Source of the DNA: Candidatus Campbellbacteria bacterium CG10_big_fil_rev_8_21_14_0_10_35_52
GTDB taxonomy: Bacteria > Patescibacteriota > Minisyncoccia > Phycocordibacterales > UBA2163
NCBI GenBank assembly: GCA_002778715.1
Contig: PFAA01000038.1
Location: 1,468 to 13,006 of the forward strand
Direction of reading: 5' to 3'
Length of the DNA: 11,539 nucleotides
Position numbers and translations under genes: made by a program. How positions within the stretch are numbered: the stretch's first letter is position 1; every line of letters starts with the position of its first letter. The notes under the pieces were generated by a model. It did no database searches. It had not been told where the DNA came from and saw only the letters and a program-made list of their open reading frames with translations. Positions 592 to 7,155 of this stretch are shown here, piece by piece.

Positions 592-726
592 GATTACAAA
601 ACTCGTTGCAGAGGCATTGTCTTTGAAAGACATTGCGTAGGCAAAGAAACACGCCGAGCATAACAAAAAATCAACAGATTTTATATGTGTCTTGCAAAGA
701 TAATGCTAAGAAAGAGTTTTGTAATT
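592..726. repeat. Nested-stem element, copy A
   Basis: The ends are a perfect 12-bp inverted repeat, ATTACAAAACTC (593-604) with GAGTTTTGTAAT (714-725). Inside are a second stem (613-619 with 701-707) and a third (622-632 with 688-698). Copy B at 1731-1862 has the same plan in the same orientation and shares identical blocks: TTTGAAAGACATTGCG, AGCATAACAAAAAA and TGTCTTGCAAA. Paired positions differ in a compensatory way between the copies, so pairing itself appears conserved. It is either a structured RNA or a small non-autonomous mobile element; strand of action is unknown. Confidence 0.7.
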
Positions 727-778
727 TAAAATATATAGTTACTCTTTGTGTAATAAAATCAGAACTTATAAATATAAT

Positions 779-798
779 TATCTTGTCTAAACGAGATA
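779..798. repeat. CTCGTYTARACGAG palindrome, copy 1
   Basis: Eight-base arms TATCTTGT and ACGAGATA (one mismatch) enclose CTAA. The flank through 807 also matches the stretch inside the HTH gene at 1568-1590, about 20 of 23 bases, so this may be a stray copy of the start of that gene rather than an independent site. Confidence 0.5.
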
Positions 799-900
799 TA
801 TTTATCTTAAAATTAAATGATTTTTGCTGTTTTGAATCCATATATTATAAATATCAATATATAAACTTATATCATTCTTATAACTGTTGCTATATATCAT

Positions 901-920
901 TATCTCGTTTAGACGAGATA
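901..920. repeat. CTCGTYTARACGAG palindrome, copy 2, just behind the HTH gene stop
   Basis: TATCTCGT and ACGAGATA form perfect 8-base arms around TTAG. The palindrome abuts the TAG stop of the HTH gene (921-923, minus). No T-run follows on the minus strand, so termination is not supported. It could be an operator or an mRNA 3' hairpin. Confidence 0.55.
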
Positions 921-1613
921 CTATTTTAATTTAAATATATTAATTAAGTTGCTTAAATTGAAAACCTTTAGACCGCTTGCTAAATGGATTTTAGTATTCA
1001 TTTTTTCATTATTAACGGAGTAAGTTACATTCCGCTCTAATATAAAACTACCAGCTATAAATAATATGCCGACTATTGCAAGTGTAACTGTTATAATGCC
1101 GGCAGGATAGAAATTTCTGCGCGTTTGAAGCGCTATTCCTTGCCTTTTAATAATCGCTTTATTGTTTTGATTTTGTAATAAATAATCTTGTCTGTATTTT
1201 CTCAAATCTACTGTTGATTTTTCAATTGTAGGAATATGCGTAATGTATTCACCTATTGATTTTACTTCATTTTCTATATTATTTTTTTCTTCATCTATTT
1301 GATTTTCCATTAAAACTTTTTTATTTATTTCTAAATTATTAGGGCGATTATCGTCAATGTAATACATAGGATTTTCTAATTCATATTTTTTATACGCTAT
1401 TCTGTTATACATTCGAGCGTTTTGTTCTTTCTTAAAACTTTTTCTTTGTTCAACGACGGCTGTTTCTTTTACATACCAATTTCTTCCAATAAGCCGACAA
1501 TCCATATTTCCACTACGGCACATCTGTCCGATATAATCGACAGAGTATCCTGTAAGTTTTGCGGCTCGTTTAGACGAGATATATTTATTTCCAGCGAAAA
1601 TTAGTTCTTCCAT
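921..1613 (-). CDS. Helix-turn-helix protein with a C-terminal membrane helix
   Basis: The 230-residue product begins with a MerR/excisionase-like (HTH_17-type) DNA-binding segment at residues 10-58 (YISSKRAAKLTGYS, then YIGQMCRSGN and LIGRNWYV). A charged linker follows (about 60-165, rich in Asn, Glu and Lys), then one strong hydrophobic helix at about 169-192, preceded by basic residues (QTRRN). This predicts a cytoplasmic DNA-binding domain and a ~38-residue outer tail: a membrane-tethered regulator. Similar HTH-plus-membrane proteins are, from memory, common in Parcubacteria, with no assigned role. The start is the first ATG of the frame, with TATAAT ending 7 bases before it and no Shine-Dalgarno, so the mRNA may be leaderless. 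It stands alone, bracketed by nested-stem copies A and B. The target and signal are unknown. Confidence 0.75.
   Translation of the reverse strand: MEELIFAGNKYISSKRAAKLTGYSVDYIGQMCRSGNMDCRLIGRNWYVKETAVVEQRKSFKKEQNARMYNRIAYKKYELENPMYYIDDNRPNNLEINKKVLMENQIDEEKNNIENEVKSIGEYITHIPTIEKSTVDLRKYRQDYLLQNQNNKAIIKRQGIALQTRRNFYPAGIITVTLAIVGILFIAGSFILERNVTYSVNNEKMNTKIHLASGLKVFNLSNLINIFKLK
1565..1578. repeat. CTCGTYTARACGAG palindrome, copy 3, inside the HTH coding sequence
   Basis: Here CTCGT-TTAG-ACGAG lies in the coding sequence and encodes residues within ISSKRA at the start of the HTH domain. The same palindrome occurs outside the gene at 779-798 and 901-920. Confidence 0.5.
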
Positions 1614-1620
1614 ATTATTT

Positions 1621-1626
1621 ATTATA
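1621..1626 (-). promoter_or_regulatory. Likely -10 box of the HTH gene
   Basis: A perfect TATAAT on the minus strand ends 7 bases before the ATG. A start point at normal spacing would fall on or next to the ATG, giving a leaderless message. No clear -35 is seen, and the surroundings are AT-rich, so chance cannot be excluded. Confidence 0.5.
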
Positions 1627-1670
1627 AGTCATATATCGCATATATAATAATTGTTAGATGTGGAAAAGTC

Positions 1671-1690
1671 CTCTATTTGACTAAATAGAG
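1671..1690 (-). terminator. Possible terminator hairpin behind gatB
   Basis: CTCTATTT and AAATAGAG arms enclose a 4-base loop. Read on the minus strand the stem is followed by GACTTTTCC, a weak T-run. The location, between gatB with its trailing element and the HTH promoter, suits a terminator for gatB transcripts. Confidence 0.4.
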
Positions 1691-1730
1691 CCATTTTATC
1701 ATCAATCAAAAAAGAAGGATTTATTTACTT

Positions 1731-1862
1731 TGAATTACGAAACTTGTCGCGGGCATAATTTTTGAAAGACATTGCGCGATGCGAACACGCAAGCATAACA
1801 AAAAAAGCGGATTTTTATGATGTCTTGCAAAAACTTATGCCAAGAAAAGGTTTCGTAATTCA
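1731..1862. repeat. Nested-stem element, copy B
   Basis: Terminal inverted repeats of 13 bases, TGAATTACGAAAC (1731-1743) and its complement (1850-1862), are perfect. The second stem is GGCATAA (1752-1758) with TTATGCC (1835-1841). The third is TTTG-A-AAGACA (1761-1771) with TGTCTT-G-CAAA (1821-1831). Inside, TTGC can pair with GCGA as a small hairpin, followed by the unpaired block AGCATAACAAAAAA. The right end lies 3 bases from the gatB stop codon, so any gatB message that reads on carries this structure in its 3' UTR, as the complement. Confidence 0.7.
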
Positions 1863-1865
1863 GGA

Positions 1866-3311
1866 TTATTTAAGAAAATCTATAAAGAGTTTTTTTAATA
1901 TTTCAGGGTTTGCCGAGCAATTTGTTTCTTTCATACCCTGCCCTATTAAGAATTGCAATGATGATTCTTTACCGCTTTTGAAATCTTTAATAACTCTTTC
2001 ATTTTCTGATATTATTTTTTCAACAATTTTTTTCAATTCGCTTTCATCGCTTCTTTGAAATAAATTTTTCTCTTCAGCGATTTTAGCGGGGTCTCCCCCT
2101 CTCTCATACATCTCATTTAAAATATTTTTTGCTCCGCGAGATGATACTTTATTTTCATAAATCATTGATATTAGTTCTGTAAAATTTTTCGCAGATATAT
2201 TTTTATGTAATTTTTTATCTAAACTTTTATCTATTTTCATAAATCCCGCTATGTCGGTCGTTATGTAGTTGGAGGCGAGCTTGATTAACTCTTTGTTTTT
2301 TTCAAATTTTTCAATTATCTCATCAAAAAGTTTCGCGAGATAAGGGTCGCGAACAAACATATTCGCGTCATCTATTTTAAGACCAAAGTTGTTTTTATAT
2401 CTTTCTCTTTTCTCCCGCGGCAATTCTGGTATTTCTTTTTTCAAATTCTCTTTTGAAAATTCTTTAATAGCGCTGATTTGAAGTTTTGGCAAATCAGGGT
2501 CTGGGAAATATCTGTAATCTTCCGAGCCCTCTTTTAGACGCTGAGAAAAAGTTTGCTGTTTGTCTTCATTCCATCCTCTTGTTTCTTGTATTACCTTTTC
2601 ACTATTTTTAAGAATACTCTCTTGTCTTTTGATTTCAAAATCAATCGCATGTTCAACCGCTCTGAATGAATTGAGATTTTTGACTTCAACTTTTGTGCCT
2701 AATGGAACAGAAAAATGCGAACTATCGTCCGCAACTTCGCGAAGCGAAACATTTGCCTCAACGCGCATTTCTCCTTTTTCCATATTCGCCCCTCCTACGG
2801 CAAGAGTTCGCAGTAAAAGCTGAAGTTCTTTCGCGAAAAAAACGGCTTGAGCGGCATTTTTAATAATCGGTTCTGTTACCATCTCCATAAGCGGAATTCC
2901 CGCTCTATTAAAATCTATTAAACTGTTTTCTTTGTCGTGAATCACCCTTGCCGTATCTTCTTCCAAATGCACCCTCGTTATGGCAATTCCCGCTAAATTT
3001 CCTCCCGACACAAGAGGATATTTATATTGGCTAATTTGATACCCTTTCGGGATATCGGGATAAAAATAATTTTTGCGGTCAAACTCCGTAAAATCAGCCA
3101 AATTGCCGCCAATCGCTATTCCTATTTTTAAAATATGCTTAACCGCCTCTTTATTTATAACTGGAAGCGTCCCAGGATGCGCTACGCACACTGGGCATAT
3201 ATTTATATTTGGTTTTTTTTCGGCAGGGTTGTTTTTAGAGTCGCAAAACATTTTTGTTTTTGTTTTCAGCTCCGCGTGTATTTCAAGACCGATAGTTGGT
3301 ATATATTTCAT
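1866..3311 (-). CDS. gatB: Aspartyl/glutamyl-tRNA(Asn/Gln) amidotransferase subunit B
   Basis: GatB is the tRNA-binding and phosphorylating subunit of GatCAB. It converts Glu-tRNAGln to Gln-tRNAGln, and Asp-tRNAAsn to Asn-tRNAAsn, using ammonia released from glutamine by GatA. The 481 residues match the usual ~475-residue length. The N-terminal catalytic domain shows GLEIHAELKTKTKMFC (8-23), CPVC with HPGTLPVIN (about 40-53), and RKNYFYPDIPKGYQISQ (about 79-95). The C-terminal third, from about 330, is the helical GatB/YqeY tail that grips the tRNA. gatA and gatC are not in the window. A tRNA-Gln gene lies about 0.9 kb upstream, matching the substrate. The start is the first ATG; no Shine-Dalgarno is visible. 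It ends in TAA three bases from nested-stem copy B. Confidence 0.97.
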   Translation of the reverse strand: MKYIPTIGLEIHAELKTKTKMFCDSKNNPAEKKPNINICPVCVAHPGTLPVINKEAVKHILKIGIAIGGNLADFTEFDRKNYFYPDIPKGYQISQYKYPLVSGGNLAGIAITRVHLEEDTARVIHDKENSLIDFNRAGIPLMEMVTEPIIKNAAQAVFFAKELQLLLRTLAVGGANMEKGEMRVEANVSLREVADDSSHFSVPLGTKVEVKNLNSFRAVEHAIDFEIKRQESILKNSEKVIQETRGWNEDKQQTFSQRLKEGSEDYRYFPDPDLPKLQISAIKEFSKENLKKEIPELPREKRERYKNNFGLKIDDANMFVRDPYLAKLFDEIIEKFEKNKELIKLASNYITTDIAGFMKIDKSLDKKLHKNISAKNFTELISMIYENKVSSRGAKNILNEMYERGGDPAKIAEEKNLFQRSDESELKKIVEKIISENERVIKDFKSGKESSLQFLIGQGMKETNCSANPEILKKLFIDFLK

Positions 3312-3356: not shown

Positions 3357-3392
3357 CCGTAAAGTCCGTAAGGTTTATAAAGTTTGTAAAGT
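3357..3392. repeat. Short ACTTTAYRR minisatellite, 4 units
   Basis: Read on the minus strand this is four 9-base units: ACTTTACAA, ACTTTATAA, ACCTTACGG and ACTTTACGG. The same unit makes the 25-copy array at 5275-5496. Here it sits just behind the 3' end of the DedA-family gene, separated only by the hairpin at 3394-3416. Confidence 0.65.
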
Positions 3393-4303: not shown

Positions 4304-4387
4304 ACATTTAGAATAATTTCTAAATCCCGAATTATAACTTTCACGAAAAAATAAAGCGTTTTTTGTTGTATCTTTAGTTAAATTAAA

Positions 4388-4430
4388 ATGGTGCGTAATT
4401 TCAGCGATAGCGGATTTTCGGCACCTTTTT
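4388..4430. repeat. GGTGC repeat, copy 1
   Basis: A 36-base core runs from GGTGC (4390-4394) to GCACC (4421-4425), which are mutual reverse complements. The core contains TTTCAGCGATAGCGGATTTT. ATG precedes it and a T-run follows. It matches copies at 4482-4524 (one substitution) and 5170-5212 (two substitutions), all in the same orientation. Confidence 0.8.
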
Positions 4431-4453
4431 TAAAACTTATCGGCAAATATGTA

Positions 4454-4471: not shown

Positions 4472-4481
4472 GTATTTATAA

Positions 4482-4524
4482 ATGGTGCGTGATTTCAGCG
4501 ATAGCGGATTTTCGGCACCTTTTT
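4482..4524. repeat. GGTGC repeat, copy 2
   Basis: It has the same core as copy 1 apart from one A-to-G change, with GGTGC at 4484-4488 and GCACC at 4515-4519. Similarity to copy 3 continues past the core as CACCTTTTTATTTTA. It lies about 65 bases behind the PaaX/Cas2-like stop codon. Confidence 0.8.
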
Positions 4525-4588
4525 ATTTTAATTTTATTTTAATATTTAAAAATTTAAAATTATTTTAATAACTACACTAAATGTCAAA

Positions 4589-5134: not shown

Positions 5135-5169
5135 TTTATTTTTTTATTTTATTATTTATAATATAATAA

Positions 5170-5212
5170 ATGGTGTGTAATTTCAGCGATAGCAGATTTT
5201 CGGCACCTTTTT
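5170..5212. repeat. GGTGC repeat, copy 3 (upstream of the PaaX/Cas2-like gene)
   Basis: It differs from copy 1 at two core positions. One change turns GGTGC into GGTGT, so the end pairing survives through a G-T pair. It lies 35 to 80 bases before the PaaX/Cas2-like start codon, where an operator would sit. Confidence 0.8.
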
Positions 5213-5274
5213 ATTTTACTTAATTTTCAGCTAATTTCAACAAAAGTATACCCATTATTTATTGAATATACCAA

Positions 5275-5496
5275 ACTTTATAGACTTTACAGACTTTATA
5301 AACTTTATAGACTTTATAGACTTTACGAACTTTATGACTTTATGACTTTATGGACTTTATGGACTTTATGGACTTTACGAACTTTACGAACTTTATAAAC
5401 TTTACAGACTTTATAAACTTTACAGACTTTATAAACTTTATAGACTTTATAGACTTTATAGACTTTATGACTTTACAGACTTTACGAACTTTATGG
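5275..5496. repeat. ACTTTAYRR minisatellite, 25 units
   Basis: Twenty-five head-to-tail units of ACTTTA plus a short suffix: 22 units of 9 bp and 3 of 8 bp. The suffix comes from a small set: TAG, CAG, TAA, CGA, TGG or TG. The order is TAG CAG TAA TAG TAG CGA, then TG TG TGG TGG TGG CGA CGA, then TAA CAG TAA CAG TAA, then TAG TAG TAG TG CAG CGA TGG. The last unit contains the pyrG stop codon (5491-5493). A 4-unit relative lies at 3357-3392. Confidence 0.95.
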
Positions 5497-7155
5497 ACTT
5501 TTAATCGTCTTAACACATACTTTTATAAAAGCAGTGAAAAGCGGATGCGGGCAAAGCGGCCGCGCTTGAAATTCCGGATGAAACTGCGTGGACAAAAAAA
5601 ATGGATGTTTATTGGGAGGAAGCTCAACTATTTCCATAAGCTTTCCGTCCGATGACACTCCCGAAAACACCATACCACCTGATGATAATTTTTCAATATA
5701 TTCAGGATTTACTTCGTAGCGATGTCTGTGTCTTTCTTTAATTATATTTTTACCGTATGCTTTTCTTGCAATAGTTCCCTCTTTTAACCGCGCTTCATAT
5801 GAACCGAGACGCATCGTGCCACCGTAATTATTCTCCTTTAATTTCTTTTTTTGGTCTGGCATTATATCTATTACAGCATCTTTTGTTTTTGGATTAATCT
5901 CCGAGGTATTCGCGTCTTTCATTCCTAAAACATTCCTTGAGTATTCAATTATCGCTAATTGCATTCCGTAACAAATTCCAAAATATGGTTTTTTGTTCTC
6001 GCGCGCCCATTGAATGACTTTGAGCTTGCCTTCTACTCCGTCTTTACCAAAACCGCCGGGTATTAAGATACCGTCATATTTTGATAAAGATTTTAATTTA
6101 TTTTTATTAATGTCAAATTCTTTTGAATCAAGCCTGTGAAGGAGCGGTTTTACTCCAAACTCATAGGAAGAAAATTTCAAAGCTTCAATTATGGATATAT
6201 AAGCGTCAGATAATATAAAATCTCCCGTATCAAAATATTTTCCAACTATCGCTATATTCACTTCTCTCTTGCCAGCTAAAATTTTCCCGCTTTTGCTGGT
6301 AAAATTTCTCCATTTTTTTAAATTGGTATTTTTTCTTGCTTTGCCGTATCCAAGAAGTTTAAGGATTATATTCCCAAGATTATCTTTTTCAAAATTAATC
6401 GGAACATCGTAAATACTTTCAATATCCGGAGCCGATATTACATATTCTGTCCGCACACTGCACGATATGGCTATCTTTTCTTTTCGTTTTTTATCAAGCA
6501 GTCTTTCGCTTCTTGCGATTATAATGTCCGGCTGGACACCGTATGAATTTAAGAGCCGCACCGCATTTTGCGTCGGTTTTGATTTCATCTCACCAAGTTT
6601 TTTTGGTATGGGCAAATAACTCATCATTATAAAAAGAACATCATTTGGTTTTTTAACATTAAGAACACGGGCGGCTTCTATAAACATTATATTCTGATAA
6701 TCGCCTATGGTGCCTCCTATTTCTATAATTGAAATATCCGACCCATTCCTCTCCGCCGCTTTGTTTATTCTGTAAATTATTTCATCGCGAATATGCGGTA
6801 TTGCTTCAACACACTTCCCTTTATAACCAAGATTTCTTTCTCTTTCAATAACGCTCTTATATACCATACCGCTTGTAATATAATCTTCTTTCGTCAGGTC
6901 TATGTCTAAAAATCGTTCATAATTGCCCATATCCTGGTCGCATTCTAAACCGTCTTTAAGAACAAACGCTTCGCCGTGTTCTGTTGGGTTCATAGTTCCT
7001 GCGTCAACATTTAAGTATGGGTCTATTTTAATAAGATTTATACTGAAACCTCTTGCCTGCAAGATATTGCCTATTGAAGACGCCGCTATACCCTTACCGA
7101 CACCAGACATAACTCCGCCTATAATGAATATATATTTATGATTTTTTCTGTTCAT
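5491..7155 (-). CDS. pyrG: CTP synthase (glutamine-hydrolysing)
   Basis: It converts UTP, ATP and glutamine to CTP. The 554 residues are near the usual ~540. The N-terminal amidoligase domain (1 to about 275) opens with IIGGVMSGVGKGIAASSIG (11-29), including the P-loop Lys21, then KIDPYLNVDAGTMNPTEHGE (43-62). The C-terminal class I glutaminase domain (about 299-545) has the oxyanion loop PGGFG (366-370), nucleophile Cys395 in FGICYGMQ, and His526/Glu528 in QFHPEF. Tyr follows the Cys where most homologues have Leu. It overlaps ftsX by 4 bases (ATGA), implying translational coupling. The last residues (KSP) and the TAA come from the first minisatellite unit, so the array may have replaced the original 3' end. 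Confidence 0.97.
   Translation of the reverse strand: MNRKNHKYIFIIGGVMSGVGKGIAASSIGNILQARGFSINLIKIDPYLNVDAGTMNPTEHGEAFVLKDGLECDQDMGNYERFLDIDLTKEDYITSGMVYKSVIERERNLGYKGKCVEAIPHIRDEIIYRINKAAERNGSDISIIEIGGTIGDYQNIMFIEAARVLNVKKPNDVLFIMMSYLPIPKKLGEMKSKPTQNAVRLLNSYGVQPDIIIARSERLLDKKRKEKIAISCSVRTEYVISAPDIESIYDVPINFEKDNLGNIILKLLGYGKARKNTNLKKWRNFTSKSGKILAGKREVNIAIVGKYFDTGDFILSDAYISIIEALKFSSYEFGVKPLLHRLDSKEFDINKNKLKSLSKYDGILIPGGFGKDGVEGKLKVIQWARENKKPYFGICYGMQLAIIEYSRNVLGMKDANTSEINPKTKDAVIDIMPDQKKKLKENNYGGTMRLGSYEARLKEGTIARKAYGKNIIKERHRHRYEVNPEYIEKLSSGGMVFSGVSSDGKLMEIVELPPNKHPFFLSTQFHPEFQARPLCPHPLFTAFIKVCVKTIKSP

Follow-up and report, generated by a model that had tools for sequence, protein, structure and literature searches.

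The window analysed here (the whole stretch, 11,539 nucleotides) carries two look-alike structured elements, copies A and B, in the same orientation and close to gatB. The features at this locus are:

592..726, + strand: copy A, a miniature element with ends ATTACAAAACTC / GAGTTTTGTAAT; target duplication not found (3/7 bases)
618..704, + strand: core of copy A (helix P1 and three-way junction with P2 and P3), 73.4 bits with model R1
921..1613, - strand: HTH-membrane gene, 230 aa, without Pfam match; a resident neighbour, outside the element
1721..1727, strand not applicable: left target duplication of copy B, TTATTTA
1728..1865, + strand: copy B, a miniature element with IS982-type ends CTTTGAATTACGAAACT / AGGTTTCGTAATTCAGGA
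1757..1837, + strand: core of copy B, 61.4 bits with model R1
1866..1872, strand not applicable: right target duplication of copy B, TTATTTA, starting at the gatB stop codon
1866..3311, - strand: gatB, with copy B inserted directly past its stop codon

Both copies were located where the first-pass annotation had placed them, and their predicted folds were more stable than those of shuffled sequences. As RNA, copy A had a minimum free energy of -47.9 kcal/mol (z -7.73) and copy B of -48.5 kcal/mol (z -6.51), with 0 of 200 shuffles equally stable in either case; as DNA, both strands of each copy also beat the shuffles (z -5.6 to -6.9). The extent first given for copy B (1731-1862) became 1728-1865 once the terminal repeats were counted, so that the miniature element is about 138 bp long, with no transposase ORF inside. 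The nested-stem form that had been described holds insofar as A and B share stems, but further in, the structure forms a three-way junction bearing two hairpins, which became clear only after aligning relatives. The A-G mismatch of the third stem, described for both copies, recurs in 16 of the 31 distinct copies that share these ends. The predicted folds of A and B have 33 pairs in common: 24 identical, five changed on one side and four changed on both (from A to B: A-T to G-C at 598, C-G to T-A at 604, T-A to A-T at 618 and C-G to T-A at 621). The two copies differ by 36 substitutions over 140 aligned columns, 13 of them within the 66 paired columns; since the other 23 fall outside the shared pairs, A and B alone are modest evidence for pairing, and the strong part comes from the wider family.

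Further copies were found in the genome of the window and in many related genomes. BLAST with copy A identified 17 places at E <1e-6 in its own genome (G000, 532 kb), several of them cut by contig ends or with a run of N after them, and the 11 full copies had a mean column identity of 87% in alignment. A consensus search over 60 relatives, the own genome included, gave a patchy match in 17 at E <=0.01. Among the congeners, this search found 19 matches in G003, one weak match in G004 and none in G001, G002 and G005, while with the covariance model G002, G004 and G005 had two matches each and G001 had none.

The end TGAATTACGAAACTCG, with at most two mismatches, occurred 37 times in G000, 59 times in G003, 49 times in G028, 29 times in G019 and not once in G106, against 0 or 1 matches per genome for the reversed control pattern (0 in G000). 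The interiors between such ends differ: one of the forms carries the hairpin and measures about 133 bp, others measure 203-320 bp, and in G028 one reaches 973 bp; palindromes of 40-41 bp with the same ends are barely more than the ends themselves. G003 also has a miniature element of 104 bp whose ends are related and whose interior differs (L142 238-341 and 874-977; L149 132-235), which seems multi-copy, the end-pattern matches suggesting well over ten. The 973-bp element (L138 541-1513) comes from a genome of another family of the order and has identical 15-bp ends. It encodes a 266-aa ORF that matched the NCBIfam IS982 transposase model NF033520 with 104.2 bits (E 7.8e-30), a score under the NCBIfam cut-off of 130 bits; a search by sequence for solved structures of this transposase returned none. 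In the excerpted text of PMC7335449, the ends of IS982 elements start with 5'-AC in 57 of 69. Here, some ends (such as the left end of B, ACTTTGAATT) start with 5'-AC only when the A is assigned to the element, and others read ATCGTGAATT.

An exact 7/7 target duplication, within two bases of the ends, flanks 10 of the 28 copies with IS982-type ends, against a mean of 0.43 and a highest value of 4 in 2000 permutations. By genome, these are 3/11 in G000, 7/13 in G028, 0/2 in G003 and 0/2 in G019; one of the ten duplicated copies (L105) sits in a 21-bp repeat. The length of 7 bp lies inside the range of 2-10 bp spanned by IS982 direct repeats (PMC7335449, excerpted text), and as all ten duplications read TNNNNNA, 5 bp is possible if the A and T belong to the element. 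In the window, copy B has the duplication and copy A does not. B landed at the gatB stop codon, which the duplication preserved, and its site is empty in the congener G003, where the flanks are continuous. For copy A an empty site was not obtained, the corresponding stretch of G003 holding another element with similar ends. The empty site of B and the target duplications show the element to be mobile, as had been proposed. The HTH-membrane gene, in contrast, is not a passenger, and the data do not support the other role considered in the first-pass annotation, that of controller: it adjoins gatB in G001, G002, G003 and G004 (a fifth congener, G005, has no match to it at all), so that its position between A and B is coincidental. 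It is a resident gene, and B was inserted between gatB and it. The target duplications, together with ends as found on an IS982-type element, argue for a DDE transposase acting on A and B and against their mobilisation as single strands, another of the earlier proposals.

It is very likely that A and B are enzyme-less miniature copies of an IS982-type insertion sequence, in which short terminal repeats enclose a captured hairpin; for B and for other copies, insertion was accompanied by a 7-bp target duplication. An IS982-type transposase gene was detected in only 3 of 41 genomes. Of these, G000 contains only a decayed C-terminal remnant of an IS982 gene with a stop, followed by a degenerate end, and no intact transposase-bearing element was seen in G000 or G003; the G000 assembly is 96% complete with gaps inside repeats, which bears on its having only a decayed IS982 gene. 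Because this remnant is all that the assembly shows, we infer from the shared ends that an IS982 transposase acted in trans. The autonomous 973-bp element lacks the hairpin core, so the hairpin is cargo and not a leftover of the parent; three weak matches (E 0.045-0.11) fell in other short elements. MITECca01 of Cardinium, described in the excerpted text of PMC9769881 as an IS982-derived MITE derived from its parent insertion sequence, is similar in being short and transposase-less, with IS982-like terminal repeats and many, mostly intergenic copies, and differs in its interior; the elements described here instead enclose a distinct conserved hairpin, which the transposase-bearing element lacks. 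We found no IS982-derived MITE with such a hairpin cargo in the literature searched. The elements offer a clear case of a miniature insertion sequence bearing foreign structured cargo instead of its own deleted interior.

The structure of the cargo is conserved by covariation over many genera. In 16 cores from eight genomes, aligned without the model, the consensus is a helix (P1) followed by TTGCGSAG-P2-CGAGCATARC-P3-ATGYGY, a three-way junction. In some sequence of this alignment, 25 of 33 pairs had changed on both sides, and 95.0% of cells were paired, compared with 73.3% after shuffling and 34-54% after sliding. In a second alignment, which was fitted to the model and from which duplicate rows were removed for the P2/P3 strand, covariation and loop counts (97 of 102 kept), both-side changes affected 31 of 33 pairs. 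Pairing, for which selection had been proposed from A and B, is thus maintained far beyond these two copies. Between distant genomes, the arms are wholly different and the tip is constant. We considered that the arms might be inverted repeats of the insertion site, and rejected this because congeners show compensatory arm changes and because arm lengths cluster near 19 bp (the median of 66 copies, range 4-44). Taken whole, we consider it probable that A and B are IS982-type miniature copies enclosing an older, independent hairpin, for which a role at the RNA level is a much more tentative part of the reading. This cargo has a helix whose sequence is free, and which ends in a three-way junction carrying two small hairpins.

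In the order, model R1 matched 85 of 197 genomes and 66 of 140 genera at E <=0.001 (its E-values are rough). The 112 genomes without a match indicate that the hairpin is not essential. A sample of the phylum gave matches in 21 of 379 genomes at E <=1e-4, 12 of them in the order, one elsewhere in the class and eight outside the class (six in family f146). Copy number is patchy, up to at least 23 matches per genome, and some genomes of only 0.5-1 Mb have at least 10 copies; as R1 was scored on 23 candidates per genome in the order and on 12 in the phylum sample, all of its per-genome counts are minimum values. Among named genomes, the exact core pattern occurred in 26 stretches, 22 of them in Patescibacteria/Parcubacteria groups (including Nomurabacteria, Taylorbacteria and Campbellbacteria) and one further in an uncultured bacterium. 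The matches in Bacillota, Cyanobacteria and Anaerolineae (L164, L184, L186) were taken as chance since they had no R1 match, and the exact pattern occurred in 0 stretches of viral contigs. The Rfam 15 covariance models gave no match at E <=1 on A, B or the hairpins of 11 related loci, and the literature searched yielded no description of the hairpin. The finding therefore splits in two: a miniature transposon of a known kind, IS982-derived MITEs having been described (PMC9769881, excerpted text), which partly counts against the earlier view that no such family was known, and a hairpin family absent from Rfam 15 and from the literature searched. Model R1 offers a starting point for annotating the intergenic DNA of Parcubacteria, which are hard to culture.

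Copies with and without IS982-type ends were separated by genome (G000, G003, G019 and G028 against the rest), and by eye a few copies from the remaining genomes (L067, L118) have similar ends. For hairpins without such ends, single-strand mobilisation is an alternative reading: an enzyme would read the folded strand and insert the hairpin itself without target duplication, the IS982 ends being acquired later in few lineages. Consistent with this, 64 copies from other genomes gave no duplication signal (mean longest shared word 6.52, against 6.47 when permuted), subfamilies of the G031 copies are alike over arms and core only, and the patchy distribution reaches the high copy numbers given above. 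When the flanks of five G018 copies were searched in the congener G100, two sites were occupied by another member of the family, on the other strand (scores in G100 of 54.4 and 49.0 bits); at one the same hairpin was present with a compensatory arm change, and of the remaining two sites one was rearranged and one was not found. Some orthologous copies, on the other hand, are stable between congeners (the pairs L045/L114 and L054/L113 look orthologous by eye), and no enzyme emerged as a candidate. A link to Y1 transposases, as in REP/REPIN sequences with RAYT, which are likewise multi-copy folded intergenic repeats, was rejected: PF01797 is present in 27 of 41 genomes and does not track the hairpin, being absent from the high-copy genomes G018, G100, G023, G103, G069, G074 and G139 (each with at least 11 matches) and present in nine compared genomes without a hairpin match; the structure here is also larger than in REP/REPIN, and Y-shaped. 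On balance we regard this route as unlikely. We would likewise give little credence to the broader proposal that the hairpin represents a novel type of folded-strand element, present in Paceibacterota and in one or more other classes of the phylum, which would spread by recognition of its folded tip, leave no target duplications, exchange in place at fixed intergenic sites (for another subtype, on the opposite strand), and have been captured by an IS982-type insertion sequence.

Some hairpins occur in tandem and are truncated in part, as would result from insertion of new copies into older ones (L091 1524-1783, L058 1501-1694, L096 1565-1730). A variant core, TCGCGAG...CGAGCGCTTCAGGATTTTT, was seen in hairpins of G018 (right flank of L115; L100 2397-2482); the L115 hairpin sits at a stop codon, and its G100 version is shorter by 54 bp, between repeats of TCAAAA.

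The hairpin might be a functionless palindromic passenger, with pairing perfected by template switching inside imperfect palindromes. MITEs are commonly palindromic (PMC10969869, excerpted text), and the P3 loops of the window copies (AACA in A, AGCG in B) do not follow the family consensus; copies from the four genomes with IS982-type ends are in general less strict, with AGCA in 15 of 31. Of 66 distinct copies from other genomes, however, 50 have AGCA as the P3 loop, 37 have GACG or GGCG as the P2 loop, and 63 have GA as the junction bases after P2. Such conservation of unpaired loops and junction is not explained by palindrome repair, and makes the passenger reading doubtful. With strict patterns, the base loop with tandem G·A (e.g. 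GCGAGG/CCGAGC) was complete in only 21 of 98 copies, and by eye is visible in more copies than these counted, an inspection from which L220 (match at 1221-1306) was left out; it lies mostly 23-26 nt from the tip (for G028 copies, a TTGCG occurring earlier in the arm gave a spurious distance of 15).

Regarding which strand is read, copies of other genomes had more G-U than A-C both in P2/P3 (25 against 3) and in the arms (25 against 11), pointing to one folded strand. Copies with IS982-type ends had the reverse in P2/P3 (10 G-U against 24 A-C), which may reflect common descent. With respect to gene starts and ends, the copies taken together had no clear preference in orientation under stricter, though crude, ORF calls; in G031, 15 of 19 copies point towards a downstream ORF start under crude calls, and by eye several are followed by promoter-like motifs. 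That the hairpin acts as DNA, as a cruciform or protein-binding site between transcription units, would fit the folding of both strands, arms that are nearly all Watson-Crick with few G-U pairs, an intergenic location in both orientations and this lean in G031, but is distinctly unlikely because one strand has more G-U than A-C in copies of other genomes and the copies as a whole have no orientation preference.

Under the preferred reading of an RNA-level role, the folded + strand would be recognised as RNA when intergenic regions are transcribed, perhaps as a site for processing or stability. A cis-regulatory leader was rejected, as the G031 lean was not borne out over all copies with stricter ORF calls. 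An intrinsic terminator was rejected as a general role, since T-tracts were not enriched over controls: of 65 copies, 10 had a T-run of at least five at the right arm and 15 an A-run at the left arm, with 17 and 11 for the wrong-base controls and 9-11% for random 24-mers; the G018 and G100 copies are terminator-like by eye. We know of no report of ERIC/Correia-type repeats with one covarying three-way junction across many genera. Compared by description only (PMC10969869, excerpted text), ERIC and Correia/NEMIS repeats resemble the hairpin in being palindromic, intergenic, high in copy number and about 100-200 bp long, and are reported to affect transcripts through folding. By analogy with Correia and ERIC transcripts, we tentatively suggest that the folded strand may have a role, most likely in RNA. 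Strong covariation, no Rfam entry and multiple copies in tiny genomes pose the question of what reads the Y-shaped tip.

The window contains other repeats. A palindrome, CTCGTTTAGACGAGATA, occurs around and inside the HTH-membrane gene at 782-798, 904-920 and 1565-1581 (two exact copies and one imperfect); the copies at 904 and 1565 are kept in G003, and the palindrome is a possible operator of this gene. Three copies of a terminator-like 56-nt repeat, GGTGCGTGATTTCAGCGATAGCGGATTTTCGGCACCTTTTT, lie at 4384-4439, 4478-4533 and 5166-5221, around a PaaX/Cas2-like gene. Beside CTP synthase, an array of 9-nt units (GACTTTATA and variants) spans 5272-5510, with a complementary stretch near 3358 (3358-3392). 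Finally, a perfect 22-bp inverted repeat with a 26-nt loop is found at 336-405 and persists in G003, where its changes are compensated or tolerated.
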